A stretch of DNA of 64,000 bases from assembly GCA_019633425.1 (NCBI GenBank), contig WSUB01000111.1, forward strand, positions 1-64,000, given 5' to 3'. Under the pieces are notes generated by a model, which had not been told where the DNA came from, searched no databases, and saw only the letters and a program-made list of their open reading frames with translations. Numbering within the stretch: position 1 is the stretch's first letter; every line of letters begins with the position of its first letter. Below are positions 2,027-45,693 of this stretch, one piece after another. This stretch comes from Tulasnella sp. 424. Taxonomy: Eukaryota > Basidiomycota > Agaricomycetes > Cantharellales > Tulasnellaceae. Made by a program: the position numbers and the translations under genes.

Positions 2027-5000
2027 TTAGAGCTCGAGTGCCTGAGAAACGTCGAAAAGAGAAAGATTACGGTTGCGAAGAACGGCGAGTGTGCTACCGG
2101 AGAGGAGGACAATGTCAGAAGCGGGATCCCTCTCCCAGTATTGTGGAGGAAGCCAAATGAATCGGGATGAGGAAAATACTACCCAATGATCTTGGACGGC
2201 CGGATTCCAATGGAGTGGAAGACTGCGCAGAGTGTCACAGCGTTGGCGCGTCACAGCATCCCATGTGGCACAATCGCCATTCCAATAACGTCCGCCGAGA
2301 AGAGATCCATCTGAGGAGAAACAGACGGAGTAAACCCAGGAGTTATGACCGGTGAGTGGTTCCCCAATCGCCGTTCCAGTCTGAGGGTCCCAAAGTTGAA
2401 TTGTCGTGTCATCGGATCCAGATGCCAGAACCTTGCCATCGGGGGAGAAGCAGACGGAGCGAACGTAGTCACGATGACCTGTGAGTGGTTCACCGATCAC
2501 TGTTCCAGTCTCAGTATCCCAGAGTCGAACTGTCTCATCAGCGGATCCGGATGCCAGAACCTTGCCATCGGGCGAGAAGCAGACGGAGCAAACCGGGGCA
2601 CTGTGACCTGTGAGTGGTTTACCAATTGCCGTTCCGGTCTGAGTATCCCAGAGTCGGATTGTGCCGTCCCCGAATCCGGATGCCAAAACATTGCCATCGG
2701 GCGAGAGGCAGACGGACGTAACGCTCCTACTGTGTCCCTTGACTGGTTCACCAATCGTCGTTCCGGTCTGAGTATCCCAGAATTGAATTGTCTGTTCATC
2801 GGATACAGAAGCTAGGACCTTGCCATCGAGCGAGAGGCAGACGGAGGAAATGGAGCTCCTGCCAGTGTGACCTGCCATTGGTTTGCCAATCCCTGTTCCG
2901 CTCTGAGTATCCCAGAGTCGAATTGTGTTGTCTCCGGATCCGGATGCCAGAACCTTGCCATCGGGCGAGAAGCAGACGGTGTAAACATCGCCGCTGTGAC
3001 CCGTGAGCTGTTCACCGATTACCGTTCTGGTCTGAATATCCCAGATTCGAATTGTCTGGTCATCGGATCCGGATGCGAGAACCTTGCCATCGGGCGAGAA
3101 GCCGACGGAGCGAATATAGTTGCTGTGACCCGTGAGCGGTTCACCGATTGCCGTTCCGGTCTGAGTATCCCAAATTCGAATAGTCTGGTCATCGGATCCG
3201 GATGCCAGAATCTCGCCATCGGGTGAGAAGCAGACGGAGTTAATTTCCCCGCTGTGAGCTGCGAGTGGTTCACAGATCAACGTTCCAGTCTGAGTATCCC
3301 AGAGTCGGATTGTCTCGTCTTTGGATCCGGATGCCAGAATCTTGCCGTTGGGCGAGAAGCAGACTGACCAAATCCAGTCACCGTGACCTGTGAGTGGTTC
3401 ACCGATCCCCATTCCAGTCTGAGGATCCCAGAGTCGAGTTGTGTTGTCTCCGGATCCGGATGCCAGAGCCTTGCCATCCGGCGAGAAGCAGACGGACAGA
3501 ACGGAGTTGCTGTGACCTGCGAGTGGTTCCCCGATCACCGTTCCGGCCTGAGTGTCCCAGAGTCGAATTGTATTGTCAGAGGATCCGGATGCCAGAACCT
3601 TGCCATTCGGCGAGAAGCAGACGGACCGAACGGAGTCGCTGTGACCTGTGAGTGGTTCGCCGATCACCGTTCCGGTCTGAGCATCCCAGAGTCTAACTGT
3701 GCAGTCACCGGATCCGGATGCTAGAATCTTCCCATTTGGCGAGAATGCAACTGTTCCCACCCATTGACCGATGGAACGAACCCAGATATTTGATGACCAC
3801 GTCGAACCCGTGAGACCCTTTATAGTTTGGACTTTTGCAAGTTTACGGTACAGCTTCCATAATTCCGTCTCCACTGGACAATGAGCAAGCGCTGATACGT
3901 AAATATGGAGCGGTCCGAATTGAATCGGCTCCGAAAACGCGGCGATGAACCGTTGCGCATCGTTCCATAGCGTGTCAAATGAATCGGATTCAAGTACGCC
4001 ATTGGGGCAGTGCTATAAGCGTCCACTCAGTTCATTTGGTTATCGGAGTGTTTGAATCTCAGTCCGCGACTTACCCGGAGCCACTCGCACACATTCTTTG
4101 CCACGATAATTGCGTCCTTAATCACTCCAGCCAAGCTCATGACTTCAAGCCAGAACATGAGTTTCTCCTTGCTAAACACTTCGAAAGCGGCAAGTCGCAC
4201 ACAGAAAGCATCTGTGCCCTGGATTGGCCAATGGACTCCTTCCGTGAGATGAATGGACCAGGATCGGCAGCAATACAGAAGGGCCGTGGGCACCTTGTGC
4301 TCTGCAGTATTCTGAATCTTCGATGCCGATTTCGAAAGGTCGGACAGGCCACAAATGTTCTCCCTCAGGTCCCGGATCATGGTGTCGAAGCACGTGCTAG
4401 CTAGCTGCTGATGGTGCTGAATGACGTCGATGTAATAAGATGCCTGCTTGCACCGACGTTCGCTGACAAGAAGATCGTGAATAGACGTGTGCATGAGGCG
4501 TATGGGTTCTGCCGAGGACGTGGGGATGAGCAGGAGGGAATTGAGGTCGGCGAGAATGTCATTGCGGAGGAATTGGACGATGTCCGCCTCATCTGTCCCA
4601 TCAAAGATCTCATTATCGCGGTAGAGGCCCGCAACAACTTCGAGGGAAATCGGATACGGCGCCACCGTTAGGACTCCTAACACTCGGCGCAAAAGATCCT
4701 CTCGCTCCGGATCTAGCCTTAGCGTATCAAACGCCTTTGAGAGGATTTGGTCGTATAGGTCATCAAGTCCGCTCCACATCGATGGTTTCCTCAATAGTCC
4801 CCGCAATCGATCCATGGGTGACCCACTGCGTATATACGTAATCACAGTGCGAGCCCACTGAAATAGACCTTGAGACATCTCCACAAGCCGGCTGACATCT
4901 TCGGATGAAGGCCAGTTTTCCGGAACGTTGGAGTTGGTGCGCCGAATTTGTTGGCATGCCTGTTGGATGAATCGCTCCAGATCATTTGACACATCAGGAG

Positions 5001-7248
5001 CGGTGTCCAGGTCTTCCGCGCGCCACTTCTTCGGCTCAGGAGCCTGAAGTAGATGAGTCTCTGGACGAGATGTGAGGAGGAATTTGACGTTCGGGGGAAA
5101 CGATGTAGAATGGTCATGAATGAGACGGATGAAGTCAACAGCGTCATTTGGATTATCGCACTCGTCGAGAGCATCAACAACGATGAGGATGGGGTGGGGT
5201 TGATTATGGAGCTTCGCGAGTGATGCCACAAAGAGCGTCTTGAACTGCTCTTCAAGTCGTTCATCCGCGATGTCCTCCTTTTCTCGTACACCGTCGAGCA
5301 CCGCATTTCTGACTTCCGGAACCAAACTGCTTGCCAGTTGCCTCGCGAGAGCGCAGACAACACGCGCGTTCAATGCGTTCTGTCCGCGGCGGAAGTGAAA
5401 GATTGCGCACGACCCTCGGCGTTTCCATTTCTCGACCACCGTTGAAGCAATTGTTGACTTCCCTCGTCCAGCCATCCCCCGGAGCCATAGCACCCGGTCG
5501 GGAGCAGACGAATTCTTAATCCAATTGTCGATCCGCTTCAATATCTCCACTCTAGTTCCTGGAAAGCAAGTGACGTCCTGGATCGAGTTTCCCTGTGCTC
5601 CGTATTTTCCATCGCCAAGGCATTTAAGCAGGCGACGTTGCTTCTCTTGAACTTCATTGTTTTCTGAGGCAGAACGTCAGGAAAGTACGGCAACGTGTGA
5701 TACAGAAGGAACTGACTGAGTTCGATTACGATGCTGCGAGTGTCGAGACCCACGAGGAGCTGGTGCAAGGAAATTTAGTCGACCGCCACGCGAAGATAGT
5801 ATGGTGCTGTACTGACTTGAATTTCCTCCATCGCAGTTTGGATCGTACCCTGGTGACCCTTCAATGATTCTCCATGGTCCCGAGCGTGGAACGCCTTGTT
5901 GAAGCGACCCCGGGACTTCCATTCTTCTACTTTGGTGTGTATGCGCTGAAGTTCCCTGCCCGAGGTCTCAGTAGGGATACTACTGCGAGGAAACGAATGT
6001 CCACCTACTTCTGTAAGCCATCAACATGGCTCGCTGTCTCCTGTCCTTGGTCGGCGCCCGGTGCTTTGGTGAAGTTTGCAAGACAGTTGGAGAGTTTGTC
6101 TGTCTGGGATGCCAGGCCCTTGGCGAGATCATCGTTCTTGTCCATAGTCTGAGGTCGTCTCGTCAGAATTCGAAGGAACAAAAAGTCTGAAGACTCGACC
6201 TGCCTGAATCGTTTCCACAAACGCCAATCCGACTTTGGCAGCGGCAGCGACGAAATTCCCCGCGACAGGAATGGATCCAGACGCGATCTCTGCGGCTTTA
6301 AATATCTTTCTGGCTATGGTGAGAGCTTCTTGGCGAACCGGACCGCGAGATGTCTCATCCTCCGGACCAGCTAAGAGTGGGTTTTGGGTGGGGGGTGCGC
6401 CCGAAGTCGAATCATTGGACGCGATGCTTTGTTCGGAGGGCTTAGTCTGAGTGGCAGAGAGCGGCGTAGGCGCTCGTCCAGCGCCGGGGACAGTCAGTCC
6501 AGCCTGGGTTTCCGGAGAAATCCCAGACGCCGCGAGATCCCCCTCTGAGTAAACAAGCAATCAATTTCCCGCAGGCTCGCGAATGGCAAGGGGCACCTAC
6601 CCCTTTTCCGCTCGTTATCCAAGAACTCCTTCAAATAGCTCTATGAGAAAAAGCTAATCCGGAAGTGAACACTGTTTCACGTACATTGATAGCAATCACG
6701 ACTTTCGACACATCGTCTTGACAGGTTTGGAAGAGTAAAGTGCATTTGCTTGGGCGGTTGGAGGCTATCGACTTGATTCCCTCAAGGAGTTTCCATCTTT
6801 TCATCCCCGCCTTCGATTTCGCGTCCTTTAATTGTGCTTCGACGTCTTCGAGGATTCTGGGAAGGAGCAAGCTACAGCAAGCTGAAGCCTCTGCAGAGCG
6901 CCGAACGTACTGGATATATTTTTTGATGAGATCTTGGGAGTCGTTGGCGGCGTTGCTGGGAATATTCGGGGAGGACTTGACTGTGTTCAGCAACTGGTTT
7001 GCGGCGTCCTTCGACTCCGATGGCCATTTAGTGTCCTAGAACGGGGTCATTTACGGCGCGGTGTGCCTATCTAGAAGCAAACTTACTTTGAGGATTGATT
7101 CTACGGCTTGTTTTAAGGACTTCGCTCTCTCGCCAAGGGTTGGATCTAGTGCCCCGGGCAGGGGAGTTGGAAGTAATCGACCAGACGTCGCTGGTGGTTT
7201 CCCGGGCGACTGTTTATCGGTCGTTGTTGATCCATCGTTCGTAGCCAT
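2027..7248 (-). CDS. NLR1: NACHT-WD40 STAND protein with N-terminal helical (MLKL-NTD/HeLo-like) domain, intact
   Basis: Nine exons can be joined in phase: 7087-7248, 6685-7035, 6601-6640, 6204-6544, 6009-6148, 5817-5982, 5717-5759, 4075-5663 and 2027-4012, giving about 1605 residues. Residues 1-400 are helical. The part from about 215 to 400, with a small-residue IPVAGNFVAAAAK helix and a later KVEEW..GRF segment, resembles MLKL-NTD/HeLo-like membrane-acting domains (inference). NACHT: Walker A GMAGRGKST near 477, Walker B ILIVVDALDE near 573. The last exon carries 11 canonical and one degenerate WD40 repeats, nearly identical to each other, with variation in the triplet after GH and in the GSxDxT segment. 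By family knowledge, STAND proteins sense a ligand through the propeller, oligomerise by NACHT and trigger the N-terminal effector. The fourth intron is GC-AG. It lies in tandem, on the same strand, with three paralogues. Confidence 0.9.
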
Positions 7249-7790
7249 ATCTGAAGTTCGGTAATATCGTCAGAGTGCGGTGCTGCGAGTGGGAGAGGTT
7301 CGGCGAAGGTTGATGGATGCGTTGGCGGGTCAGTCACAGCACAGCCTCAGCCTTACGAGATCCGCATGGCTTCGGGCCGGTCGGCAGGTACGTGCCTCAG
7401 TCCCGCTTCTCCGACTACTCTGTTACAATTGATGTCACAGTAATGTTACTTGAAGAAACCCAACGTCGCATCTCTCGTGGATCCGTTTGCCACGGCTCAT
7501 GACTGAGTGTAAAAATCGCTGCGCTCGGCGAGGCTTGTTGAAGGGCAGAATCGATCCACAACGGTGGTGGGTTGAGACGACAAATGACGAAGATATACAA
7601 TTGAATCGAGACAGGTGCTTCGCGGCAAACTGACGAAGTTGCATGGCAGCTGCGCTTCTTGGAATGCGATCAGAATCCGTTTCAACAAGAACTGTTGGTA
7701 ACTAATTGGTATCACACAACGACAATATTTGATTTGGATTTATTGAACGAAGTAATTGGAAGGGAAAATCACATAATTGCAACATACCAA
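7249..7790 (-). promoter_or_regulatory. 5' region of NLR1, conserved with NLR3
   Basis: The stretch between the NLR1 start codon and the WD40 remnant matches 37346-37881, between NLR3 and NLR4, nearly base for base. Weaker matches occur upstream of NLR2 (21092-21430) and in 43510-43760 upstream of NLR4. It therefore holds the ancestral NLR promoter. I cannot point to one transcription-factor site with confidence. Confidence 0.5.
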
Positions 7791-8145
7791 TCAGAGCTCG
7801 AGTGTCTGAGAAACATCAAAAAGAGAAACATTACCCTTGTGAAGGACAGCGAGCGTGTTACCAGATAAGGAAATGTCGGGAGAGGGATGGCCCCAGTATT
7901 GTGGAGGAAGCCAAAGGGGGATGAGGCAAGCTCTATCCAATGATTTTGAAAGGTCGGCTTCCGGCGGCATGGAGGGGTGCGCGGAGTTTCACATCGGTGA
8001 GGTACGGCATCCCACGTGAGACGATAACCATACAAATCACGTGCGGTGAGACGGACGGACGTAAACGGCCAATCGTGAGCTGTGAGTGGTTCTCCGATCA
8101 CCGTTCCGGTCTTAGGATCCCAGCGTCGAATTGTGTTGTCTCCGG
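7791..8145 (-). pseudogene. Remnant of the 3' end of an NLR4-type WD40 exon
   Basis: Read on the minus strand, this matches the last ~110 codons of NLR4 (37882-38230): a final repeat with IRRWDPKTGTVIGEPLTAHD, the RLTWDAVP block and the tail ending at a TGA (7791-7793). Relative to NLR4 it lacks four bases near 7914, which breaks the frame. The match stops abruptly near 8145, where Rieske promoter sequence begins. It is the tail of a neighbouring NLR carried along when the NLR3-type block was duplicated. Confidence 0.85.
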
Positions 8146-9178
8146 ATCCGAGAACGGGAAGGGGTGCACAGCCACGGGAACTCTCCAATGAGAGCGTCGC
8201 GTTTTCGCAACCGACCCATAGACTTCCCTCGCCCATCCTCTCCCTCCCCTCCCCTCCCTCTCCCAGCCTAGCCATATGCCGACGCTAGCTCGCTCAGTGA
8301 CGAGGGTGAACCTCGCACCGACTGTCTCTTAATTTTCTGCGGGAGTTCCAAAAGCACCCGTTTTCGTCAACTTTGCCGCAAAAGCTCTTCACGATGCTCA
8401 CCCCCCAGCGTCAACCACGGTCCAGCATCCGCTCCGAGCGACGTTGCTCTTACGTAGATCACTGAAGTCAACATGAGGAATGGATTCGACGGTCTTGTGT
8501 CCAAGACTCGAGGGTTTACTGGTTCGTGCCTTCCTTTCGTGCTGTCGGGTCGTTTCAGTTGAGACTGACATGAGAAACCTGGATGCGACCCACAGCTCCT
8601 CCAACTGTGCCAGCCTCGTTCCGCCACCTCCACAACTCCCGGGCTGCTCAACAGGCCCTTGAAGTTCCAGACTTCTCCGCTTACAAGGTGTCGTCCGGGT
8701 CCAACAACCGGGCACTCAGCTACTTCTTCGTTGGCTCGATGGGTGTAGCTTCCGCCTCTCTTGCCAAGTCAACTGTCACTGGCTCCTTGTCGTCCATGGC
8801 TGCCTCCGCGGACGTCTTGGCTCTGGCTAAAGCCGAAGTCGATACGGCCAACATTCACGAAGATGCGTACGGGCATGCTCACGCGGCGTTGGATCTGTGT
8901 CACTTGCAATACACTTCCCCCTTCCTCTTTGAAATTCGGCCAAATAGGCGAGAACGTTACTATTAAATGGTGGGGCAAGCCAATCTTCATTCGCCTCCGG
9001 ACCCCGGAGGGGATCCAAGAGGCCAACAGTGTTGACGTTAAGTCTCTTCGCGGTTCTCAAACCGACAAAGCACGGAGCTAGCGGCCCGAGTGGCTCGTCA
9101 TGCTCAGCGTTTGCGTTCACTTGGGTTGTGTCCTCATCGGCGAAAGTGGTGACTTCGGAGGATGGTTCTGCCCATGAA
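8146..9178 (+). pseudogene. Rieske iron-sulfur protein pseudogene, copy 1
   Basis: This aligns with the promoter and first three exons of the intact gene at 44549-45693. The start codon is at 8276. Lesions are a nonsense TAA about 18 codons in (CAA in the parent), frame disturbance near 8398-8410, loss of the second splice donor (GTGCGT changed to ATGCGT near 8871), a TAG in the third-exon region (9078), and His replacing Thr-His context in the first cluster box (CVHLGC). Similarity ends just before the second cluster-binding box, where TGCCCATGA replaces TGCCCCTGC. It cannot make a functional complex III subunit. Confidence 0.9.
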
Positions 9179-9674
9179 TGTTCCAACGTTTGATATGCAT
9201 GCATCACCACATTGGGGTCCTTCAGCGGTTTGCGGTTGCGCTCTCCACCAACTGTTACGTTGGGCCGGGAGAAGATTACTTAACTCCGATCGGGGAGGAC
9301 AAGGGAGGGGGGAGAGGCGTCAAATGGGGGTCTAGAAGTACTTCCGGATTCCTCTTTGTGTTATGGTAGCATATGATTGCGTGCCAATTCCAATGACCGT
9401 TTCTGCTTATAACTGTTAAACGAGGTCGGAGCTGGTACTTGCACTGCCGGATTTTCGACGATGTTCATGGTGTCAAGCTGACCCGACGTGAGCTCCTCGA
9501 CCTGCCATTAGTCTCGGTCATTAACGGCAGGATAACGAAACTGTATCACTCTCGTTTATGGTTTCCTCGTAAGGCGGATAATTAGCAAAAGTAAAGTAGG
9601 ACGAACAGGATGAGATGCAGAACAAGAATAGAAGATCTGCATTCCGGTACCATCCTTTAATATACAGTAGGAAG
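9179..9674. other. Intergenic, no gene recognised
   Basis: I see no supported gene or RNA here. The stretch separates two Rieske remnants. It is not obviously related to the introns or 3' part of the intact Rieske gene. Confidence 0.4.
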
Positions 9675-10110
9675 TACTCTCGCCCATCCTCTCGCTTTCC
9701 CTTCTTTCTCCCAGTCTAATTCGAGTCATATGTCGACACTCGGTCGCTCTATGACGCCGGTGAACCTCGCACCCATGGTCTCTCAACTGCCGCAAACGCT
9801 CCTCATGATGCTCACTCCCACCACGATCCAGCACCCGTTTGGAGTAACGTTGCTCTTCCACGAGCCACTGAAGATATGCTGATAATTGGATTTCACGGTC
9901 TTGTGCTCAAGACTCGGTTTACTGGTTCGTGCCACTTCCTGTCGCGTCTTGGATCGTTCTGCTTGCCTATAGCCCTTTCCGACATGCGCGAGGTTTGTTC
10001 CGCCATGCCCATACCACCCGGACCCCCCGAGAGATCCAGGAGGTTCCAGACATCTCCGACTCCCGTATGGTTGAGCAGTGGGACGTATATTCATGCGTCG
10101 ACGATCGAGA
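9675..10110 (+). pseudogene. Rieske iron-sulfur protein pseudogene fragment, copy 2
   Basis: A CCCATCCTCTC promoter block is followed by an ATG (9729) and a recognisable first exon (MSTLGRSM..VNLAP). The frame is lost after about 20 codons. A degraded second-exon start (TTGTTCCGCCATGCCCATACC..GTTCCAGACATCTCC) follows near 9995-10060. It shares a derived TGGTTGAGCAGTGGG word with copy 4 (22350-22366) that the intact gene lacks, so copies 2 and 4 come from one already broken ancestor. Confidence 0.75.
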
Positions 10111-12320
10111 CGAAACTGGGGGTAAAAGGTCGCGCATATCTGACCTTGCGTAGGTCACGAGACACTATTCTGACGGCTTGGGGTCGAAGGTGAAATTGTT
10201 GTGAGGGTGTTTGCCGAGTCGGGCTCCCTGGTGAGCGTAACCGGGTACATTATTTCCTACTGCCTTGCTGCAGGTGCGTCAATCGAGCGGAGGACCTTGT
10301 CGATTCTTGACAGAGAGCACCGACCCGCTCGCTCGAAACGCTCATCGCCCGTTGTCCAAAGATGCCGCCACTAGCGCTTAGCAAGGTGACTGATACCTCC
10401 CACTCCTTCTCCGTTCCATCGTAGTTTTGGCCAATCCGAGCAATCCCCTCCGCTGGCGGAGCGGGTCGATTTGCTTCCCTGCCAAACCTGGTATCTGAAA
10501 CCACGCATTGAATCGCATGCGCCAAAAGCTCCAGGTGCTAGTTGAACGTGATTCATGGTAGCTTTACGAAGTTGGCTTCTTGGCCAGCCGTGACAGGGAG
10601 GGCAACGTCGCTCGAACGTTGGCGCCGGTGGGACTCGAGGGTGAGGTGACGATGTTATAGAGAAAACAAAGGTTTTGTTGGGTTATTGATATTCAATGGT
10701 TTTGATTTCGAATTATCGGCGATTATAGGCGGGCGTTGATAAAGTCCATGAAGCCGCAAAGATGAGGTGACGGGGGGGGGCAGTTTCTGGCGATTCCGGG
10801 CTGGTGAGAGTCCGTCGTAAGCACCACCACTCGAGAATCCGCAAAAAAGGTAAAAGTTGGAACGTACGGCAGTCGGAAACCTACTATCCAAAGTTCTCCG
10901 CAGGCGGATCGAGGTAGTCTGGCACTACGTGTGTCCCACCCAGCGAAGCGTCGTCGACCCCCTCTCCGTCGGTATGTTGGCATATCGCCTGTTCCCCTTA
11001 TTCCGACATATTCGGAAATCCTCGCACTAAAGACCTCTAGGATTGAGCTGTGGGCTGTTGCCGGGGAGAGAAGGTATTGGTTTAGGGAGGAGCTGTGGGT
11101 TATGGGCGCGAGTTGGTCCTGAACCCCGGAAGGTGTTTGGCGTTACGACAGCCCACAGCAGCAAAGTCCAAGGTGATCTGAGTGAAAAGGTAGTTCAACA
11201 ATTTGAGTGTCGAGCCTACGGATACCCGATGAGCTCTATTACGCGAGATGTACACGTCCGTTGTTAAGTCACTTAAGTGAGCTGAAGGAGCGCGAGCATG
11301 TAACCCATGTGGCGAGGATGCCACTTCACCCAGGTGGAGGTGGGAATCAGCTGTTCCGCTATCCCAACGTGTCGATGATCACGGAGTTCCGAGACACTGG
11401 GAACGGGAGGGAGGTGGTTGCTTGACAGAGGCGAGGTCTATTCGAACTGGTTGTGACTGCGCAAGGGTTCGGGAGAGATCTTGCTCCGACTGGTCGAGAT
11501 TGAATGGACCGACACACTCCTTCCTCCCGAGAGAGCGTAGCCATCCGTTATTAAGCGAAGTGAAGATGCCTGGGATGGAGCGAGGGACGATCGTACTAGC
11601 GCCGGTGGTGGACCCATCAAAGTGGTTGCGGAGGTGGGTCGTGTTCCAAAGGAATGCTGCCAGGTAAGTGGAAGCATGAGTTTGAATGCTTTCGATTCGC
11701 AAAAAAGGAGTTGAAACGTACATCTACCAGTTGAAGGGTCGCCATAGAAGCTCTGGAGTCCGGGACTACAAGGCTGCTTTGCCGCTGCATGTGTACCTGG
11801 GAGCGAGCTGCACTCGCTGCCTCCTGATTGCTACCCTTTGGCCTCCCTTGATTCCCCAAGCCTATTGTCAAACCTCGGCACCCAGCTCCTTCGAAGGAAA
11901 CGTTGCGAGAGGGGATTGCTTGAGGAAGCGGCGGGGTGTTGAACTGGACACTAATCACGGAAAAGGAGCTTGAATGGCCGCGGGTGGGAGGCGAAGATGA
12001 AGGAGTTCAAAGGAAATTAGTGGTTTTCATGCGTGAGGGTCGAGAATGCGACCGGTGGTGGCAAGCGAGATCATGGAGCTTGTCGGAAGGAAATCGTTTT
12101 GGTCGTCGGTTCATATTCAAATGCTTCTACAGCCACATCCTCCCTCCGAGTGCTTTGCGACGGTGGATGCTTATAAGACGGATGATAACGTGAGGGAGCT
12201 AGAGATACTCACCAGCTTTGTCCTCACGACGGCCTGGTGGAGAAATGCCCATTGAGGGGAGAGACCGTGCAAGGTCCCTGTCTGCTTGCCCGAGTTTGCC
12301 GCATGTCAATTCACCCCAAC
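10111..12320. repeat. Degenerate interspersed repeat, copy 2
   Basis: Blocks recur in the same order in other copies: the TTCTTGACAGAGAGCACCGA stretch near 10300 (compare 22640 and 29462), the GGAACGTACGGCAG..CACTACGTG stretch near 10860-10930 (compare 13710 and 23078), the GAAACGTACATCTACCAGTTGAA stretch near 11720 (compare 29985), and the GGTTCATATTCAAATG stretch near 12110. Frames on both strands are interrupted. I take it for a decayed low-coding block that belongs to the duplicated NLR-Rieske unit. Confidence 0.6.
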
Positions 12321-12889
12321 TCGTGCTCGCGAATCGCCCGCCGGATGCACTCAGACATGTCTCTTCCAAATCCATAATCCCTTTTACTTGATGCACCTGA
12401 GAGACAACAATCCACGCAAACAGACCTTCGCGCCTCCGACGTTTGTGCATGCTTCGATCCCCGTGATTGGACAACGGAGCTTGCCCCTGGTAGTGAATAT
12501 GGATTCTCCGCGCTGTTCATAATTGGGTGCGGTAAGTAGCAGCTCTGAATCTGGCGCTAAAAATCTCGTCGTTACTATAAACCGTCTTGAATTTCTGTCT
12601 TGTTATTCCCCGGCACACGTGCCCACCCCAACAGCACTGACTTTTCCCTTTCAACCCGGAATAACCTTGACTTGCTACTGTCACCCTCCATCGACGTGCT
12701 CTTATGCCAACTGGGTACCGACGCTCATGAATAAACCTCAGGCTTTTCTCAGCGTGCTCGGATCCACGGAAATGCATTCAATATGTAGAATGCCCTTTTA
12801 ACAACCGACGACGTCATGCACAACAAACCAAAGGACATTGCCAATAACTCACGAGTTATTGGCTCTTAGTACCAATGTGACTGTTTGAT
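12321..12889. other. Intergenic, no gene recognised
   Basis: Nothing is supported except weak similarity to the upstream part of the Rieske promoter near 12820-12889 (AACAAACCAAA..GACATTGCCAATAA, compare 21738-21770 and 44276-44310). Confidence 0.35.
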
Positions 12890-13420
12890 TATTTGCATTT
12901 ATGGTGAGTGTCTCCGAGTCGTTACTGGGGTGAATGGTGTCGCTGTTCATCGAGCGGGAACTTCGGAGGTTTTGCATCCCGCGATGCGGCGATACCCGTA
13001 GCTTCCACCGGAAATGTCCATTCTCGGTCCAAAGGCTGTTTCGAACTAGGGCAACATCAAGTGCAATGGTGTTATCGAATATTTGCTCTATTGTTAACGT
13101 TGCGAATGTCCTAAGTCCTGGGCATCCACATTCTCGTAATTCGCCAACGACCCGACCCATACGGTAATCTCCCTGAACTATTATCGCTCCTTCCCATCTC
13201 CCCCACGGTCTAATCATACATCAACGCTAGCCCGCCCGATGACGAGAGCGACTTCGCACCCACCGACCATCCCTCAACCGCCGAAAAGTTAAAACTACTC
13301 CTCATGATGCTCACGTCCACCACAGTCCAGCATCCCTCGGGGCGCCGTTGCTACTCCATGAGCAACTGAAGTCAAGTCGATGAATGAATTTAACGATATC
13401 TACAAATGCGCATTGACGCA
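12890..13420 (+). pseudogene. Rieske iron-sulfur protein pseudogene fragment, copy 3
   Basis: The promoter block with TTTATGGTGAGTGTCTC near 12899 matches 21812 and 44361. The first-exon block (CAACGCTAGCCCGCCCGATGACGAGAG) starts near 13221, with the start codon changed from ATG to ATC. The exon is frameshifted soon after and fades by about 13420. There is no cluster-binding region. This is the most degraded copy. Confidence 0.7.
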
Positions 13421-13559
13421 TGCACTCGGCTCCAAATGCGGACCAACACAGTCCCGTGTTACGAGATTGGGTTGCGTCTCTACTTGGCAAGCCGTTACAG
13501 GGAGAACAACGTAAGCGTCGGTAGACGAGTCGGAGATGGGTGGCAATGTTGTCGAGAAA

Positions 13560-26425: not shown

Positions 26426-26475
26426 GTGACCTTCCTACACGGCTATTTGGAAGCTGTACACTAAAGCTTTCCATA
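26426..26475 (-). repeat. Right terminal inverted repeat of hAT element
   Basis: Partner of 24220-24270. It is directly followed by CATTCC, which also precedes the left repeat. Confidence 0.85.
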
Positions 26476-31581: not shown

Positions 31582-32168
31582 TAGTACCAGTGCTTCCTTC
31601 CTCCTTCCCTACAACATAGATGTCTGTTCCAATCCAAACAGAGAACAAGAGTGTTTATGTATTGATCGATTAAGCTTCTTTTATATGTTACATTTTCTGT
31701 CACAAAATAGGCGAAAATCCGGAAACGGCGTGAATCATAGTTGGGTGGTCCGTCTTGAGGATGGTACGATCAGATGTAGGTAGCCTAGCAGTAGCTTATT
31801 GTGCATGCTTGTCAGTGTTTTGAACTTATGAGGGGAAGCGGGGAATGCATTGCAAGTGCATATTAACGATGCTGGTCCCTCGCGGGCGGAGGACTTGATC
31901 TCATTTGCAAAACCGCACAACGACACGAATCACGGTGTTGCTTCTCCCAAACCAGCACCCGTTCATTTCTTTGTAATTGGGATATCAAGAGTTGAATTCG
32001 GATAGCATGAATCCCTAAAGACAATGTTGTGGCACAAGGAGCCCATTCGAACGAGCACGATACCACCTAAGCCTTGACAACAGATCTTCTTGCAAGCAAT
32101 GAACGGAGTTATTATTAATTCATCGAGGATATTAATCGAAAAAAAAATCGCATAATTGGAAAAACTAA
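31582..32168 (-). other. 3' flank of NLR3
   Basis: From 31672 on it is nearly identical to 1525-2026 downstream of NLR1. No gene is supported. Confidence 0.5.
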
Positions 32169-35100: not shown

Positions 35101-37345
35101 GGATGAATTGCCTCAGGTCGTTTGACACATCGGGAGCCTTTTCCAGGTCTTCCGAGCGCCATTTGCCTCGTCCAAAAGCCTGAAGGAGTTGGGCCTCTGG
35201 GCGAGATGTGAGGAGGAATTTGACGTTGGCGGGGAACGATGCGGAATGTGAATCAATAAGACGGATGAAGTCATCGGCGTCCTTTGGGTTATCGCATTCA
35301 TCGAGGGCATCAACGACGATGAGAATGGGGTGGGGCTGATTATGGAGCTTGGCTAGTGAAGCGACGAAGAGCTTCCTGAATTGCTCCTCAAGTCGTTCGT
35401 CCGCGATGTCCTCGTTCTCTCGTACACTGTCAAGCACCGCGTTTCTGACTTCAGGAACCAAACTGCCCGCCAGTTGCCTCGCAAGAGCGCAGACAACACG
35501 CTTGTTCAGCGTATCCTGTCCTCGGCGGAAGTGGAAGATTGCGCACGAGGCTCGGCGTTTCCAGTTCTCGACCACCGTTGAAGCAATTGTTGACTTCCCT
35601 CGTCCAGCCATCCCCCGGAGCCATAGCACTCGGCCAGGCGAATCCCTAATCCAACTATCGACCCGCCGCAATATTTCCACCCTGGTTCCCGGACAACAAG
35701 TGACATCCTGGATCGAGTTTCCCTGCGCTCCATATTTTCCATCTCCCAGACGGTCAAGTAGACGACGCCTCTTTTCCTTCACTTCGCTGTCTCCTGAGAG
35801 AAAGGGTCAAAAAAGCACGGCGTCGTAGGATGGCAGAAACTGACTGAGTTCGATTACGATGCTGCGAGTGTCGACGCCCACGAGGAGCTGGTCAGAAGCA
35901 AGCTTAACCGGTCGTCAAATAAAGATAGTACGTTGCTGTACTGACCTGCATTTCTTCCATCGCAGTTTGGATCGTTCCCTGGTGACCCTTCAATGCTTCC
36001 CCGTGGTCGCGAGCGTGGAAGCCCTTGTTGAACCGACCGAGGGATCTCCATCCTTCTACCTTGTCATGCACGCACTGAAGTTCCCTACAGAAGGTCTCAG
36101 TATGGGTACTACCGTGCGAGGAAACGACTGTCTATCTACTTCTGTAAGCCATCGACATGGTTCGCTATCTCCTGTCCTTGATCGGCACCCGGTGCTTTAG
36201 TGAAGTTTGCAAGACACTTGGAGAGTTTGTCTGTCTGGGATGCCAAGTCCTTGGCGAGATCGTCGTTATTGTCCATACTCTGAGGTCGACTCGTCAGGAT
36301 TAGACGGAACGAAAGTCAGCCCACTCGACCTGCCTTAATCGTTTCGACGAATGCCAATCCGACTTTGGCAGCGGCTGCGACGAAATTCCCCGCGACAGGA
36401 ATGGATCCGGACGCGATCTCTGCGGCCTTGAATGTCTTCCTAAGTATGGTGATAGCTTCTTGGCGAACCGGACCACGTAAGAGTGGGTTTTGGTTGGGGG
36501 ATGCGCCCAAAGTCGAACCATTGGACGCGATACTTTGTTCGGAGGACTTAGTTTGAATGGTGGAGAGTAGCGCGGGCGCTCGTCCAGCGCCCGGGACAGT
36601 CAGTCCTTCCGGAGAAATCCCAGACTCCACGAGGTCCTCCTCTGAGTAAACAAGCAATCAATTTCTTGCAGACTCGCGAATGGCAAGGGGCACCTACCCC
36701 TTTTCCGCTCGTTATCCAAGAACTCCTTCAAATAGCTCTATGAGAAAAAGCTAATCCGGAAGTGAACACTGTTTCACGTACATTGATAGCAATCACGACT
36801 TTCGACACATCGTCTTGACAGGTTTGGAAGAGTAAAGTGCACTTGCTTGGGCGGTTGGATGCTATCGACTTGATTCCCTCAAGGAGTTTCCATCTTTTCA
36901 TCCCCGCCTTCGATTTCGCGTCCTTTAATTGTGCTTCGACGTCCTCGAGAATTCTGTGGAGGACCGAGCTACAGCAAACTGACGCCTTTACAGAGCGCCG
37001 AACGTACAGGATATATTTTTTGATGAGATCTTGCGAATCGTTGGTCGTGTTGCTCGGAATATTCGGGGAGGACTTGACTGTGTTGAGCAACTGGTTTGCG
37101 GCATCCTTCGACTCCGATGGCCATTTAGTGTCCTGGAATGGGGTCATTTACGGCGCGGTGTGTCTATCGAGAAGCAAACTTACTTTGAGGATTGATTCTA
37201 CTGCTTGTTTTAACGACTTCATTCTCTCGCCAAGGGTTGGATCTAGTGCCCCGGGCAGGGGAGTTCGAAGTAATCGACCAGACGTCGTTGGTGGTTTCCC
37301 GGGCGACTGTTTATCGGTCGATGTTGATTCGTCGTTCGTAGCCAT
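32169..37345 (-). CDS. NLR3: NACHT-WD40 STAND protein with N-terminal helical (MLKL-NTD/HeLo-like) domain, intact
   Basis: Nine exons join in phase: 37184-37345, 36782-37132, 36698-36737, 36334-36641, 36140-36279, 35946-36108, 35845-35887, 34211-35793 and 32169-34157, giving about 1592 residues. A GC-AG intron (36280-36333) must be removed, because it holds an in-frame TGA. The N-terminal half is nearly identical to NLR1. The NACHT exon (Walker A GMAGRGKST, VVDALDECD) and the 12 WD40 repeats are more diverged, so different parts have different histories. Repeat 3 has two extra residues (GTARVIGESL). The start codon opens MATNDES, as in NLR2. Only 536 bp separate it from the end of NLR4. Confidence 0.9.
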
Positions 37346-37881
37346 TCTGAAGTTCAATAGTATCGTCAGAGTGCGGTGTTCGGCGAAGGTTGATGGATGA
37401 GTTGGCGGGTCAGTCACAGCACAGCCTCAGCCTTACGAGATATCTAGATCCGCATGGCTTCGGGCCGGTCGGCAGGTGCCTCAGTCCCGCTTCTTCCCCT
37501 ACTCTGTTACAATCGATGTCACAGTAATGTTACTTAGAGAAACCCAGCGTCACATCTCTCGTGGATCCATTTGCCGCGCGGTGGTTTGGGCTCATGACTG
37601 GGTGTAAAGATCGCTGCGCTCGGCGAGGCTTGTTGAAGGGCAGGATCGATCCACAACGGTAGTGGGTCGAGACGACAAATGGCGAATATATAAAATTGAA
37701 TCGAGACAGGTACTTTGCGGCAAACTGACGCAGTTGCATGGCAGCTGCGCTTCTTGGAATGCGATCAGAATCCTTTTCAACAAGAACTGTTGGTAATTGG
37801 TATCACACAACGACAATATTTGATTTGGATTTATCGAACGAAGTAATTGGAGTGGAAAATCACATAATTGCAATATACCGA
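37346..37881 (-). promoter_or_regulatory. NLR3 upstream region / NLR4 3' region
   Basis: This short spacer holds both the NLR3 promoter and the NLR4 3' UTR. It is the parent-like counterpart of 7249-7790. Conserved words include CACATCTCTCGTGGATCC and CGCTGCGCTCGGCGAGGCTTG, which also occur upstream of NLR1. Confidence 0.5.
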
Positions 37882-40800
37882 TCAGAGCTCGAGCGCCTGA
37901 GAAACATCAAAAAGAGAAACATTACCCTTGTGAAGGACAGCGAGTGTGTTACCAGATAGGGAAATGTCGGGAGGGGGATGGCCCCAGTATTGTGGAGGCA
38001 GCCAAAGGAACCGGGATGAGGCAAGCTCTATCCAATGATTTTGAAAGGTCGGCTTCCGGCGGCATGGAGGGGTGCGCGGAGTTTCACACCGCTGAGGTAC
38101 GGCATCCCACGTGAGACGATAACCATACAGATCACGTGCGGTGAGACGGACGGACGTAAACGGCCCATCGTGAGCTGTGAGGGGTTCCCCGATCACCGTT
38201 CCGGTCTTAGGATCCCAGCGTCGAATTGTGTTGACATCGGATCCGACTGCCGGAACCTTGGAATCGGGCGAGAAGCAGATGGAGTTAACGTCGTTGCTGC
38301 GACCCGTGAATGGTTCACTGATCACCGTGCCGGTCCGAGGATCCCAGAGCCGAACTGTCTTGTCATCCGATCCGGATGCCAGAACCTTGCCATCCGGCGA
38401 GAAGGAGAGAGAGCGAACCCAGTCACTGTGATCGGTGAGTGGTTCACCAATCGCCGTTCTGGTCCGAGTATCCCAGAGTCGAATTGTGTTGTCTCCGGAT
38501 CCGGACGCCACAACCTTGCCATCTGGCGAGAAGCGGACAGTCCAAACCCAGTTGCTGTGACCGGTGGATGGTTCGCCGAGTACCGTTCCGGTCTGAATGT
38601 CCCATAGTTGAACTGTGTTGTCGCCGGATCCGGATGCGAGGAACTTGCTATCCGCCGAGAAGGAGACGCAGATAACATAGCCGCTGTGACCCGTGAGTGG
38701 TTTCCCGATCACCGCTCCGGTCTGCGTATCCCAGAGTCGAATTGTGTAGTCATCGGATCCGGATGCCAGAATCTTGCCATCCGGCGAGAAGGAGACCGAG
38801 CGAACCCAGTCGCTGTGACCTGTGAGTGGTTCACCGATCACCGTTCTGGTCTGAGTATCCCAGAGTCGAATTGTGCTGTCGCAGGATCCGGATGCCAGAA
38901 CTTTGCCGTCGGGTGAGAAGCAGACGGAGTTAACGCGGTCATCGTGATCCGTGAGTGGTTCACCGATCGGTGTTCCGGTCTGAGCATCCCAAAGTCGAAT
39001 TGTTCCGTCATTGGATCCGGATGCCAGAACCATTCCATCCGGTGAGAAGGAGACCGAACGAACCCAGTCGCTGTGACCTTTGAGCGGTTCACCGAGCACC
39101 CTTCCGGTCTTAGCATCCCAGAGCCGAATGGAATTGTCATCAGACCCGGATGCTATAACCTTCCCGTTTGGCGAAAACGCGACTGTTTTTATCGATCCGT
39201 TTATGGAGCCAACCCCTGTACTTGATGAACGAGTTGAACCGTGAAGAGTATGATGTAGAGTTTGAACTTTCGCAAGTTTACGGTACAGCTTCCCTAAATC
39301 CGTCTCCAGCGGACAATGATGAAGCGCTGACACGTAAATTTGGAGCGGTCCGAATTGAATTGGCTCCGAGCACGTCGTGACGAATCGCTGTACATCATGC
39401 CACAACGTGGCAAGTGAATTGGATTCGAGTAGATCTCCGGGACAGTGCTAAAAGCTTCGACTCAGTTCACTCTGTCGTTGTCCGAGTTTGGATCTCTTTT
39501 TCCGACTCACCAAGAGCCACTGGCATACATGCTTTGCCATCATAATCGCATCCTTCGTAGCTCCGGACAAACTCATAACTTCAAGCCAGAACACGAGTTT
39601 CTCCCTACTGAACACTTCAAAGTCGGCAAGTTTTACGGTGGCGGTAAGCACGCCCTGGTTTGGCCACTTTACTCCTTCGGTAAGGTGAGTGGACCAAGAT
39701 CGGCAGCAATACGAAAGGGCTTTGGAGATCTTTTGCTCTGCGATATCCTGAACCTCCGATGCTGGTTTCGAAAGGTCGGACAAGTTGCAAATGTTCTCTT
39801 TCAGCTCCCGTAGCATAATGTCGAGGCACAGGCTTGCCACTTGCCCGTGGTGATGGACAACATCAACGTAGTAAGACGGTTGCTTGCACCGAAGCTCGCT
39901 GACGAGGAGATCGCGAACGGAAGTGTGCATGAGGCGTATCGGCTCAGTGGATGATGTGGGGATGAATAGGAGGGAATTGAGGTCGGCGAGAATGTCGTCG
40001 TGGAGAAACAGGATGATGTCCGCGCGGTCCATCTCGTCGAAGATCTTGTGATCGCCGTAGAGGCCGGCAATAACGTCGAGGGAGATTGGGTTCGGAGCTA
40101 CTGCGATGGTTCCTAGCACTCGGCGTAGAAGATCTTCTCTCTCCGCGTCTAACCTGAGGGAATCAAACGCCTTTGAGAGAATTTGGTGGTACAAGTCGTC
40201 AAGTCCACTCCACGTCGAAGGGTGCTTCAATAACCCCTGCAACCGACCCACGGGTGACCCGTTGCTGACATATGTGATCGCAGTGCGGGCCCACTGAAAT
40301 AGACCTTGGGACATCTCCACGAGGCTGTCTATATTGTCGGATGAAGGCCAGTTGTCTGGAACTTTGCAGTTGGTGTCCCGGATCTGCCGACAGGCCTGTT
40401 GGATGAATTGCCTTAGGTCGTGTGAGACATCCGGAGCGGTGTCCAGGTCAACTGCAGTCGATTTCCTTTGCTCGAAGGCGTGAAGGAGTGGGACCTCGGG
40501 ACGAGATGTGAGCAGGAATTTGACGTTCACGGGGAACGATGGGGAATGCCGATCAATGAGACGGATAAGGTCAACAGCGTCTTTTGCCTTATCACATTCG
40601 TCGAGGGCGTCCACGATGATGAGGATGGGGTAGGGCTGGTTATGGAGCTTCCTCAGTGAAGCGGCGAAGAGCGTCTTGAACTGCTCTTCAAGCCGTTCGT
40701 CCGCGATGTCCTCCTTCTCTCGTACGCTGTCGAGCACCGCACTTCTGACTTCAGGAACCAAGCTGCCGGCCAGCTGTCTGGCGAGAGCGCAGACAACACG

Positions 40801-42625
40801 CGTGTTCAACGCGTTCTGTCCGCGGCGAAAGTGGAAGATCGCGCAAGAGGCTCGGCATTTCCACCTCTCGACCACCGTTGAGGCAATTGTCGACTTCCCT
40901 CGTCCAGCCATCCCCCGGAGCCAAAGGACCCGGTCAGGCGTCGACGAGTCCCTAATCCAATTGTCGATCCGTCGCAATATTTCCACCCTCGTCCCTGGAG
41001 AACACGTGACGTCCTGGATCGCGTTTCCTTGCGCTCCGTATTTTCCATCTCCAAGGCATCGAAGCAGACGACGTCGCTCCTTTTGGTCTTCACTGCTTTC
41101 TGGAACGGGACGTGAGAAATGAACGCCACCGGGGGATCAAAGGAACGTACTGAGCTCCGTTACGATATTGCGAGTGTCGAGGCCCACCAGGAGCTAGTCA
41201 GAAGCAACTTTAGCCACCCGCCGTATGAAGATAGTACTTGCCGTACTGACCTGTATTTCCTCCATAGCAGCTTGGATCGTTCCTTGGTGACACTTGAATG
41301 ACTCCCCATGGTCACGAGCGTAAAAGCCCTTGTCGAAGCGGCCCCGCGATCTCCATTCTGTTACTTTGTCGTGCAGGCGACGAAGCTCCCTGGCCAAGAT
41401 CTCAGCATGTCTTCCCGCTCGATGGAATCAAATCACGACCTACATCTGTACGTCTACGATATGGTCCGCTATCAGTTGTCCTTGATCCGCATTTGAGGGG
41501 TGGGTAATGTTCTCGAGAAGCTTGGACAGTCTGTCCGTCTGGGACGCCAAGTCCTTGGCAAGAACGTCGTTCCTGTCCATAGTCTGAGGTACTCTCGTCA
41601 AGATCAGACGGAAAGAAAGTCAGACAACTCGACTTGCCTCGATCGTTTCGATGACTGCCGTTCCGACTTTAGCGGCGGCTGCCACGAATCCCCCCACGAC
41701 AGGAACGGTTCCAGAAACGTATTCTGCGGTCTTAAAAGTCTTCCTGAGTATGGTGAGAGCTTCTTGGCTAAACGGAGCGCGAGATCCCTCGTCCTCTGGC
41801 CAGCCCCAGAGTGAGTTTTGAGCGGGGGATGTGCCCGGAGACCAATCGTTTGACGCAATCCCTCCTTCGGAGGACCTCGTTTGAACGAGGGAGAGAGGCG
41901 TAGGCCCTAGTCCAGCGCCTAGGATGGCCAGTCCAGTCCAGGCTTCCAACGTTATTCCCGACGCAGCAAGAGCCTCGTCTGAGTAAACGGGACAATTCCT
42001 TGCAGATCTGCGAAGGACTAGGGATACTCACCCTTTCGTCGTTCTTTATCCAAGCACTCCTTCAAAATATCTCCGTGAGTAAAAGGAGCTAGGTCCTGAA
42101 ATGACGCTGTCTCACGTACATTGATAGAAGTCACGACTTTCGTGACGTCGTGTAGACAGGTTTGAAACACTAGAGTGCATTTGGTTGTGCGGTTGGATCC
42201 GATTCGCTGGAGGCGTTGCCATAGCTTCATCCTCGGCTTGGATGCCGCGTCTTTCAATCGTGAATGGACGTCCTCGAGGACACTGGTAGGGAAAAGCTGA
42301 GCGAACCGACTGCTTTGCAGAGAATCCGAACGTACTGGATATACTGCTCGACGATATCTTGGAGCTCGTCAGAAATGCTGGTCGCGTTGTCGGGAATATC
42401 TGGAGAGTATTTGACGCTATTTAGCAAATCGTTTACGGCGCTCTTCGATTTCGACGGCCATTTGGTGTCCTAGAACGAGGTCAGTTACTGCAAGTCGTCT
42501 ACGTACGAAGCAAAACCTACTTTGAGGGTTGATTCTGCTGCGCTTTTCAAGGACTCTATTCTTGCGCCGAGACTTGAATCTCGTGCCTCGGGTGTAAGAG
42601 TTCGGAGTAATTGATCAGACATCAT
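37882..42625 (-). pseudogene. NLR4: NACHT-WD40 gene with damaged N-terminal exons
   Basis: The NACHT exon (39511-41099) and WD40 exon (37882-39447) are open. They hold Walker A GMAGRGKST, a VDALDECD box, and eight full plus one degenerate WD40 repeats, against 12 in the paralogues. The usual ATG is replaced (IIKSTATDKQ in place of MATNDESTSTDKQ). The next in-frame ATG pair is at 42620-42625. Exon 2 (42120-42469) is one base shorter than in NLR1 or NLR3, with a shift near 42290-42320 that leads to a TGA. The GC-AG intron (41584-41637) has the best consensus donor, GCAAGT. I take the gene as decayed at the N-terminus, or expressed from a downstream start. Its WD40 repeats are less alike than those of the paralogues. 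Confidence 0.75.
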
Positions 42626-43509: not shown

Positions 43510-43760
43510 TGCAATTGGGCCTTTGGCGTAGCCCCTGGTGAACCAAGTCACATCGGCCTCGCGAGGTCCGCGTTGCTTCCGTTGGAAAGTTCGATTCTGG
43601 GTCAAGTACGTGCATCGCAGTCCGCTTCTTTGATAACACTGTCACATGAGCATCGCCGCTTGAGGCAAGCCAGCGTCGCGGAATCGTAGGCCTGGCCATG
43701 AGCGGGCATAACGAACGCTGCCGTTGTTCATGAAAGGAAGGATAGTAATGTAATGTTAAC
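43510..43760 (-). promoter_or_regulatory. Displaced ancestral NLR4 promoter region
   Basis: Blocks such as CATCGGCCTCGCGAGGTCCGCGTTGCTTCCG and GATAACACTGTCACATGAG correspond to the upstream regions of NLR1-NLR3. The 0.77-kb extra segment now separates this region from the gene. Confidence 0.4.
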
Positions 43761-44548
43761 GGTGACGGGCTGAGAGAATGGAGGATTAAGTTAAGACTAA
43801 GGAATGGACAGAACACTTACTACGTACCCCCTCGAAATCGTCGCGTTGGCCCCACTGGCAAGAAACTCACGTCCAGGCCCGTCGCTCTCCGCTCTAAAGC
43901 CGAGGCCAAGGTATTCCAGCGTCCCGTGCCACTTTGCACACTTTTCCAAGTTTCTCATTGGCTCGGCCATGTTCTTGCAGAACGTTTGGTTGGGTGGGGC
44001 CTCTTAGTAGGGGTGGCACAGACTTATGCAAGTCATTGTAAACGTGCTTCTAGGTGTTCTGACCGTAACGCCGGTCCCAATTCCCTAAATATATATACAC
44101 TCTGTCTATGGGTGTCCAGGAAGAGATCCTCTCCCTTTCACCGGAAGCCATATCGTCCTCTAACCCACATTTTTTTCATTGCAATACTAGCTAGTAGCAT
44201 CCCTCCTCTATAGTGCTCCCCTCGTGCTCAACGTCATCGACCGCGCTTCGTTCTCCCGCGCCCACAGTATGATCGAGACAAACAAAGCCGAACGTTGTTG
44301 CTAGCAATAAAGCACGGCTTATTTCGGGTTTACTTTAGGCGAATGCTTAATATCTGCACTTATGGTGAGTTTCTCGACATTGGGGGGACGGCGTCGCCGT
44401 TGATCGGGCGGGAACGGGAAGGGGTGCAGAGCCGCGGGAACTATCCAATGAGAGCGTCGACGTTTTCGCAATTCGCCAACAACCCGACCCATAGACTTCC
44501 CTCGCCTCATCCTCTCTCCCTCCCTTTCCTCTCTCCCAACCTAGCTAT
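43761..44548 (+). promoter_or_regulatory. Upstream region of the intact Rieske gene
   Basis: Parts recur before the Rieske pseudogenes: AATATCTGCACTTATGGTGAG (44350), GAACGGGAAGGGGTGCAGAGCC (44412), CCAATGAGAGCGTCGACG (44446) and a CT-rich stretch just before the ATG. A TATATATACAC box lies near 44090. The CCAATGAGAG word fits a CCAAT-type site, common for respiratory genes, but this is inference. Confidence 0.5.
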
Positions 44549-45693
44549 ATGTCGACGCTAGCTCGCTCAGTGACGAGGGTGAACCTCGCACCCACCGTCT
44601 CTCAATTTTCCACGGGAGTTCCAAAAGCACCCGTCTTCGTCAACTTTGTCGCAAAAGCTCCTCACGATGCTCACTCCCACCACGGTCCAGCATCCGCTCG
44701 GAGCGACATTGCTCCTTCGTGGGCTACTGAAGTCAAGCTGAGGAACGGATTCAACGGCCTTGTTTCCAAGACTCATGTTACCGGTTCGTTGCCATTCCTC
44801 ACGTCGCATTTTCGGATTGTTTCGGTTGAGACTGACATGCGAAACGGGAATGCGACCCATTAGCTCCTCCAACCGTGCCAGGCTCGTTCCGCCACATCCA
44901 CACCTCCCGAGCTGTCCAAGAGGCTCCTGAAGTTCCAGACTTTGGTGCCTACAAGACGTCGTCCGGGTCCAACAACCGGGCACTCAGCTACTTCCTCGTT
45001 GGCTCGATGGGTGTAGTCTCAGCCTCTCTTGCCAAGTCCACCGTCACTGGTTTCTTGTCGTCCATGGCTGCCTCCGCCGACGTCTTGGCTTTGGCTAAAG
45101 TCGAAGTCGAGATGGCCAACATTCCCGAAGGTGCGTTTGGGCATATTCGCGCGGCATTGGGCCCGGGTCACTTACAATAACTTCCCCGCCTCTCCCCTTG
45201 AACTTCGGTCAAATAGGCAAGAACGTCATCATCAAATGGCGTGGCAAGCCAGTCTTCATTCGCCACCGTACCCCGGAGGAGATTGAGGAGGCCAACAGCG
45301 TTGACGTCAAGTCTCTTCGCGATCCTGAAACCGACAAAGCACGTACCAAGCAGCCCGAGTGGCTCGTCATGCTTGGTGTCTGCACTCACTTGGGTTGCGT
45401 CCCCATCGGTGAGAGCGGTGACTACGGAGGATGGTTCTGCCCCTGCCATGGTAGCCATTACGATATCTGTATGTCTTTAGCCAACGGTCCCATCCGCCTT
45501 CCTCGCGTCGCTCACATACCAATCCTGATTCACAGCTGGCCGTATCCGTGCCGGACCTGCACCCGTAAGTCCCAAGCATCTTGTATGGTGCACTTATTGG
45601 ATCGTATTGACCCTATTGTCGTTTGCATAGACCAACCTGGAGATCCCCGAATACACCATCGACGAGGGTTCTGGCAAGATCGTCGTTGGATAG
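44549..45693 (+). CDS. RIP1: Rieske iron-sulfur subunit of mitochondrial cytochrome bc1 complex (complex III), intact
   Basis: Five exons (44549-44783, 44864-45130, 45217-45468, 45536-45564 and 45631-45693) join in phase to 281 residues, usual for fungal Rieske proteins. The N-terminus is basic and Ser/Ala-rich, as for a mitochondrial presequence. One transmembrane helix lies in [20 protein letters not shown]. The 2Fe-2S boxes CTHLGC and CPCHGSH, with Cys/His ligands and the disulfide Cys, are complete, followed by [10 protein letters not shown] and the C-terminal ..GSGKIVVG. It carries electrons from ubiquinol to cytochrome c1 in the inner membrane. All splice sites are GT-AG. Exon 4 is only 29 nt. 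It is the only functional copy in the window, facing away from the NLR array. Confidence 0.95.

Follow-up and report, generated by a model that had tools for sequence, protein, structure and literature searches.

A duplicated pseudogene can arise as a truncated passenger, when a gene next to a duplicated unit is cut at the duplication breakpoint and is then copied together with the unit. Among NLR genes of the NACHT-WD type, exchange between family members is known from the nwd/HNWD genes of Podospora, according to the parts of the two reports drawn on here (PMC1805685, PMC4986451), and the portion of the Sordariales survey used here gives clusters of two to five NLR genes each, with paralogous copies in only 16 of 272 (PMC12258605). 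Here we analyse positions 1-64000 of contig WSUB01000111.1 of Tulasnella sp. 424 (hereafter the window, labelled C15; the other contigs of this 46.8-Mb genome are labelled C105, C195, C312 and so on), which hold four immune-receptor-like NLR genes, an intact gene for the mitochondrial Rieske iron-sulphur protein (R5) and four Rieske fragments (R1 to R4).

As far as the Podospora genes are described in those parts of the literature, the NLR genes of the window share with them a NACHT domain combined with WD40 repeats resembling one another within each gene, as well as exchange between family members. In contrast to that description, exchange in the window also covers the NACHT core, the genes stand in tandem arrays with shared spacers, and their N-terminal region matched eight proteins, all eight from Tulasnella. 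With the Sordariales clusters, as portrayed in the sections concerned, the locus has in common that NLR genes are grouped in the genome, for which unequal crossing-over has been proposed in Sordariales, but here the relatives per contig are more numerous (four on C15, six on C105, six on C116 and eight more distant ones on C268) and a fragment of a housekeeping gene is carried along. The Rieske fragment is a real and traceable passenger, ordinary in mechanism and unusual in the gene concerned; it differs from truncated passengers in general in that it comes from a complex III gene, the Rieske gene, which is single, and in that the same junction is found on C15 and C312, with its spacer side on C195. 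Among the titles listed in literature searches, none concerned linkage between NLR and Rieske genes.

Results

Unprocessed Rieske fragments in the NLR array

A first-pass annotation of the window had described four NLR genes accompanied by remnants of a Rieske gene. All four NLRs proved to be NACHT-WD40 genes on the - strand, and Rieske remnants were found by sensitive blastn near all four places named, with E-values of 0 to 1e-28 and all on the + strand (Table 1). In 300 dinucleotide-preserving shuffles of positions 44265-44945 the best E-value was 2e-4 and two matches reached 1e-3 or less; the main match of every Rieske copy scored 3e-19 or better. The annotation had further held that each remnant keeps the promoter, the start region and part of exon 2, which did not prove general, as the match of R2 begins ∼48 nt upstream of the ATG without promoter sequence, and R3 has lost its start codon and shows neither a clear exon 2 nor a clear intron 1. 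R1 is the most complete, retaining part of the promoter sequence, exons 1-2 and most of exon 3, within which its match to R5 stops; its exon 1 carries insertions of 8 nt and 3 nt, and its identity to R5 is 84-88.5% in exons, 74-76% in introns and 82% in the promoter. Over all, R1 is 84% identical to R5 and the other Rieske copies 64-73%. Promoter sequence is also present in R3, R4 and the copies on C195 and C105. Intron-1 sequence is retained in R1, R2 and R4, though shortened in the latter two, which rules out the processed, intronless copies that the annotation had named as a sign of retrotransposition. R1 to R4 are thus unprocessed fragments of the Rieske gene, with introns and flanking DNA kept and coding sequence damaged (the intron state of R3 being not clear), and are presumably functionless.

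The reference for these comparisons, R5, was spliced by hand from five exons and gave an open protein of 281 amino acids, with PF00355 above the Pfam cut-off on the exon-3 open reading frame (ORF). The protein aligns with organism-named records, among the 120 relatives listed, at 59-76% identity over 95-100% of its length; all 120 carry PF02921 and PF00355, and the closest named record among them is from Tulasnella sp. 419 (76%), one record without an organism name reaching 95%. It contains CTHLGC and CPCHGSHYD, which we take to be the Rieske 2Fe-2S cluster motifs, and from motifs and full-length alignment it is a mitochondrial Rieske protein. A protein-level search of the genome, for which the query was a 122-residue reading spanning exon 3 and the preceding intron, returned one full match, R5, and two pieces of R1, and nothing else. 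R5 and NLR4 stand head to head with ∼1.9 kb between the inferred ATGs; the first-pass annotation had called this pair intact, which applies to the Rieske gene and not to NLR4, where exon 2 has a net change of -1 and the usual position lacks an ATG, one in frame being found further in. The intergenic region between them contains, at 43828-44043, a dispersed short element of ∼200 bp with matches on more than 10 other contigs.

Truncated copies share an exon-1 deletion and a spacer junction

A stretch of exon 1 that encodes G23, P25 and N32, residues invariant in 11 aligned proteins, is missing in all five truncated copies (R2, R3, R4 and the copies on C312 and C195) and in neither of the two others (R1 and R5), the deletion measuring ∼37 nt in R4, C312 and C195. 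Moreover, R2, R4 and the C312 copy match the Rieske gene up to ∼44940, in exon 2, and then continue into the same sequence, termed spacer E (TGGTTGAGCA...). On C195 the spacer side of this junction (TGGTTGAGCA...) is present and the Rieske side is lost. R2-E2 and R4-E4 can be aligned for ∼430 nt beyond the end of the match to R5. The same cut in R2, R4 and C312 is not expected from independent losses of whole Rieske genes, and the shared states of deletion and junction indicate that the fragment was already truncated before it spread. We infer that one already truncated 5′ Rieske fragment was amplified with the NLR genes, and base its single origin on the deletion and the junction, not on the Rieske tree.

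On C105, spacer E is flanked by the 3′ end of one NLR gene and the 5′ side of the next, and the same holds for C15, there with Rieske pieces. Thirteen copies of its proximal part were found (three on C15, four on C105 and one each on C195, C312, C348, C447, C116 and C387, with 3.5 kb each examined on C116 and C387), six of which adjoin Rieske sequence: the three on C15, those on C195 and C312, and one on C105 near 15 kb, with promoter sequence only. Pfam gave no match for four ORFs in E spacers.

A genome-wide DNA search recovered Rieske-derived sequence on C15 (R5, R1, R4 and R2), C195 and C312 only; sensitive blastn of contigs chosen for NLR, spacer or Rieske-like matches added R3 and the C105 copy. 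On both C195 and C312 an NLR NACHT match ends ∼2.6 kb from the Rieske fragment. A motif match on C74 with two mismatches was rejected as a Rieske fragment, the R5 gene having no blastn match there. Separately, a stretch of ∼450 bp downstream of NLR3 (31133-31583) is 89% alike to C195 30804-31245, a copy that sits within the C195 Rieske fragment; it is probably a mobile element.

Discordant trees, a mosaic NLR1 and unequal divergence

The comparison of NLR and Rieske trees that the first-pass annotation had proposed gave agreement for C195 and C312 and disagreement inside the window, so that the mismatch of trees which the annotation had named as a refutation was found in part. In a tree of the NACHT region (16 genes from the window and selected contigs) NLR1 grouped with NLR2 (support 100/100), NLR4 grouped with the two C105 genes at 17 kb and 37 kb (100/99), these two being sisters (100/100), and C195_26k grouped with C312_113k (100/100). 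In the tree of seven Rieske copies R1 grouped with R5 (99/98) and C312 with C195 (100/100), the remainder being unresolved. Concordant trees and similar divergence, as a unit of NLR and Rieske gene duplicated together would leave them, were not found within the window, while C195 and C312 were concordant.

NLR1 is itself composite. It shares 94-95% identity with NLR3 in the flanks, whereas its NACHT core (∼4197-5797), in windows of 400 nt, is 89-96% identical to NLR2 and 76-88% to NLR3. The pattern of sites is strongly clustered: 302 switches occur among 974 informative sites, where 2000 shuffles averaged 487 and never fell below 441, and the mosaic reflects gene conversion or an equivalent exchange. 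Gene trees of NLRs in such arrays can therefore mislead, NLR1 going with NLR2 by its core and with NLR3 by its flanks.

The annotation had also seen NLR1 and its Rieske remnants as a mirror of the NLR4-Rieske pair. Instead, R1 directly adjoins not the 5′ end of an NLR gene but the stump n4, the 3′ end of an NLR4 copy, with few shared bases only at the junction. Kimura (K80) distances of neighbouring pieces differ widely, being ∼0.05 for the NLR1 flanks against NLR3 and for the stump against NLR4, 0.185 for R1 against R5 over the 5′ half of R1, and 0.35-0.62 for R2, R3, R4, C312 and C195 against R5 or each other, except for C312 against C195 (0.16). An origin of R1 and NLR1 in one event was rejected, as the stump (95.6%) and the NLR1 flanks are much closer to their counterparts than the promoter and introns of R1; a young copy of the NLR3-NLR4 stretch thus appears to abut an older Rieske pseudogene, although the gap may instead stem from a subsequent conversion by which the NLR side alone was reset. 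With such distances side by side, and with NLR1 a mosaic, the array does not hold the built-in clock that had been ascribed to it.

Between R1 and R2, positions 9478-9659 show 86% likeness to C105:21227-21401, a stretch next to a copy of spacer E and probably towards the 3′ end of the 17-kb NLR gene; this likeness suggests that R1, too, runs into NLR 3′-flank sequence.

NLR genes and neighbouring sequence

A nine-exon model was made by hand for NLR3 and projected onto the other three genes. Only NLR1 and NLR3 are open throughout (1597 and 1585 codons, including the stop), and NLR2 carries frame-breaking insertions of +4 in exon 1 and +1 in exon 2. At the end of exon 4 of NLR3 (36334) and at the same site in NLR1, NLR2 and NLR4 a GC-AG intron (donor GCAGGT or GCAAGT) was modelled so that the frame stays open. 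NACHT and NPHP3_N scored above cut-off in all four genes, which places them among the NACHT-domain proteins, and each gene has 7-12 WD40 stretches with DNA self-matches at ∼129-bp spacing, as in WD40 arrays of high internal similarity. None of the three N-terminal ORFs tested for an effector domain had any match in Pfam; the predicted structure of a Tulasnella relative is helical on the N-terminal side, at low confidence (mean pLDDT 50.5). Genome-wide, at least 77 NACHT matches were scored out of 169 candidates.

Table 1. Positions of NLR genes, Rieske copies and spacer copies in the window.
Feature	Position	Strand	Description
E1	762-1528		distal part of spacer, 3′ side of NLR1
NLR1	2027-7249	-	NACHT-WD40; open over nine projected exons; ends NLR3-like, NACHT core NLR2-like
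n4	7789-8149	-	stump, 3′ end of an NLR4 copy, 361 nt; joined to R1; 95.6% to 37880-38246
R1	8149-9176	+	Rieske pseudogene; matches R5 44409-45445, 84%; blastn 8149-9176, 84%, E = 0
R2	9679-10058	+	truncated Rieske fragment with part of intron 1, joined to E2; R5 44501 to ∼44940; no promoter match; blastn 9679-9965, E = 8e-34
E2	10058-12349		spacer fused to R2; found elsewhere in the gaps between NLR genes, 3′ of one of them
R3	12820-13400	+	Rieske promoter and exon-1 remnant, its two parts separated by unmatched sequence; blastn 13122-13395, E = 1e-28, and 12822-12961, E = 2e-8
E3	13480-14952		second spacer copy, after R3, before the NLR2 3′ end
NLR2	15882-21092 (5′ end approximate)	-	NACHT-WD40; NACHT and WD40 exons open
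R4	21727-22333	+	truncated Rieske fragment (promoter, exon 1, part of intron 1, exon-2 start), adjoining the 5′ side of NLR2 and joined to E4; R5 44265 to ∼44940; blastn 21727-22333, E = 6e-67
E4	22341-24168		spacer fused to R4, junction same as R2-E2
E5	29969-31045		distal part of spacer, 3′ side of NLR3
NLR3	32169-37345	-	NACHT-WD40; full open nine-exon model, 1584 amino acids
NLR4	37882-42625 (5′ end inferred)	-	NACHT-WD40; of the NLR genes the closest to R5, with which it stands head to head; open in its NACHT and WD40 exons; shorter WD40 array
R5	44549-45693	+	intact mitochondrial Rieske iron-sulphur protein gene; sole full copy found in the genome
R5 exons	44549-44782, 44863-45130, 45217-45468, 45536-45564, 45631-45693	+

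Inside the array, an element at 24220-26475 with inverted ends of ∼61 bp (92%) looks like a DNA transposon; it is copied at C323:171699-174533 (94-95%, in three pieces) and has many partial copies. Sequence at 26530-28400 has copies 77-83% alike on C232, C405 and C421, and neither of the two ORFs tested there had a Pfam match. Beyond the Rieske gene, an aldehyde dehydrogenase-like gene at 49799-51226 (- strand; Pfam match in two of three pieces, one of them below cut-off) is followed by a tandem array on the + strand (51983-64000) of at least five F-box-type genes, 64-80% alike in DNA, with F-box-like matches in all four ORFs tested and repeat matches reaching the end of the window.

Discussion

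We consider it probable that a broken 5′ piece of the Rieske gene was copied as a passenger of the NLR genes, rather than that whole Rieske genes were copied and lost one by one. Several points weigh against this. The genome-wide DNA search was not exhaustive, R3 and the promoter piece on C105 having escaped it, and further copies may exist. The length of the exon-1 deletion is not uniform, R2 and R3 differing from the rest, and the junction is missing from R3. R2, R3 and R4 are not joined by the Rieske tree itself (67/66), which is midpoint-rooted only and has C312 and C195 filling less than half of its columns. The fragments of C195 and C312 are found 3′ of the nearest NLR gene and share its strand instead of standing head to head with it, so that an inversion must be assumed. 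Seven of the 13 copies of spacer E are without Rieske sequence by blastn and insertion into an older spacer thus remains compatible with the data, and the founding breakpoint, like the direction of events, is a matter of inference.

The last two points bear on the main rival, to which we give a clearly smaller though still appreciable probability, namely that a single insertion, for instance in connection with repair, brought a 5′ Rieske fragment into an NLR spacer already present, and that the fragment then hitchhiked, without marking a founding breakpoint. C348 and three C105 spacers, which have the NLR upstream region and spacer E without Rieske sequence by blastn, are in line with such an insertion. 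Against it, parts of the intergenic region between NLR and Rieske gene (43606-44461) survive in the 17-kb unit of C105, in the same order as far as 44461 and in the head-to-head arrangement seen at R5; the spacer of the 37-kb sister is without this region, an absence that looks like loss, and a short promoter-like footprint in C348 and two C105 units, suggestive only, points the same way. Repeated duplication of an NLR together with a whole Rieske gene, each extra Rieske copy being lost independently, was the history proposed in the first-pass annotation. NLR genes and Rieske 5′ sequence are indeed repeatedly neighbours, with the latter always on the + strand in C15, and R1 is a longer copy with exons 1-2 and most of exon 3. 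This history is nevertheless unlikely: it is contradicted by the shared exon-1 deletion and the shared junction, the latter largely refuting it for R2, R4 and C312, and NLR1 and R1 differ in both divergence and tree position.

Very unlikely, in our judgement, is selection on the Rieske promoter piece as a driver of the adjoining NLR gene, that is, a shared two-way promoter. The head-to-head arrangement of NLR4 and R5 at ∼1.9 kb, and the promoter sequence kept in R1 (partly), R3, R4, C195 and C105, would suit such a role, but the copies are just 59-73% alike (the pairs R1-R5 and C312-C195 excepted), R2 and several NLR spacers have no promoter sequence, and at C195 and C312 the piece lies on the NLR 3′ side. 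An origin of the remnants as processed retrocopies is hardly conceivable, as no point in its favour was found and it is contradicted by intron-1 sequence in R1, R2 and R4 as well as by promoter sequence in R1, R3 and R4.

For the passenger origin that we favour, the following order of events may be proposed. The tandem array of Tulasnella-type NACHT-WD40 genes in the window stops, on this side, at the sole Rieske gene found in full. Early on, a copy of the pair of NLR and Rieske gene standing head to head would have kept only the 5′ part of the latter, cut in exon 2 and fused to spacer E; most likely this cutting and fusing was itself the founding tandem duplication, its breakpoints falling one within the Rieske gene and one in an NLR 3′ flank. 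Such a breakpoint would explain why the working gene is single and lies at the end of the array, and the ordered intergenic region of the C105 unit, together with the grouping of its NLR gene with NLR4, fits a founding tandem duplication followed by erosion. The dead Rieske piece would then have spread with the NLR-spacer unit inside C15 and to other contigs and decayed. R1 would be a second, longer copy, separate from and younger than the truncated ones; NLR1 and the NLR4 stump, copied far more recently from the NLR3-NLR4 stretch, would have been joined to it, and an NLR2-like NACHT core would have entered NLR1 by conversion or a like exchange.

The first-pass annotation was thus partly borne out in its observations and partly in its interpretation. 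The link between NLR and Rieske genes is right in outline, in that Rieske 5′ sequence was carried along with NLR genes (on C15, near NLR genes on C195 and C312, and as promoter only on C105), and the unit it proposed fails in that a whole gene was not lost each time; the history, the pairings and the clock do not stand.

A more far-reaching idea, which we regard as speculative and rather improbable, is that the NLR clade of this genome was born at the head-to-head NLR-Rieske pair, with the cut promoter and exon of the Rieske gene passed on as a heritable tag and the early NLR genes expressed from a captured two-way housekeeping promoter. If this were true, related Tulasnella genomes would carry the same tag, and the spread of NLR genes could be traced tag by tag. 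At this locus the Rieske fragment is a good marker of NLR spread and not a clock, and for the growth of fungal NLR families it offers an internal marker, as the unique junction of a single-copy gene with an NLR spacer reveals array units to be of common descent even where the NLR genes themselves have been reshuffled.

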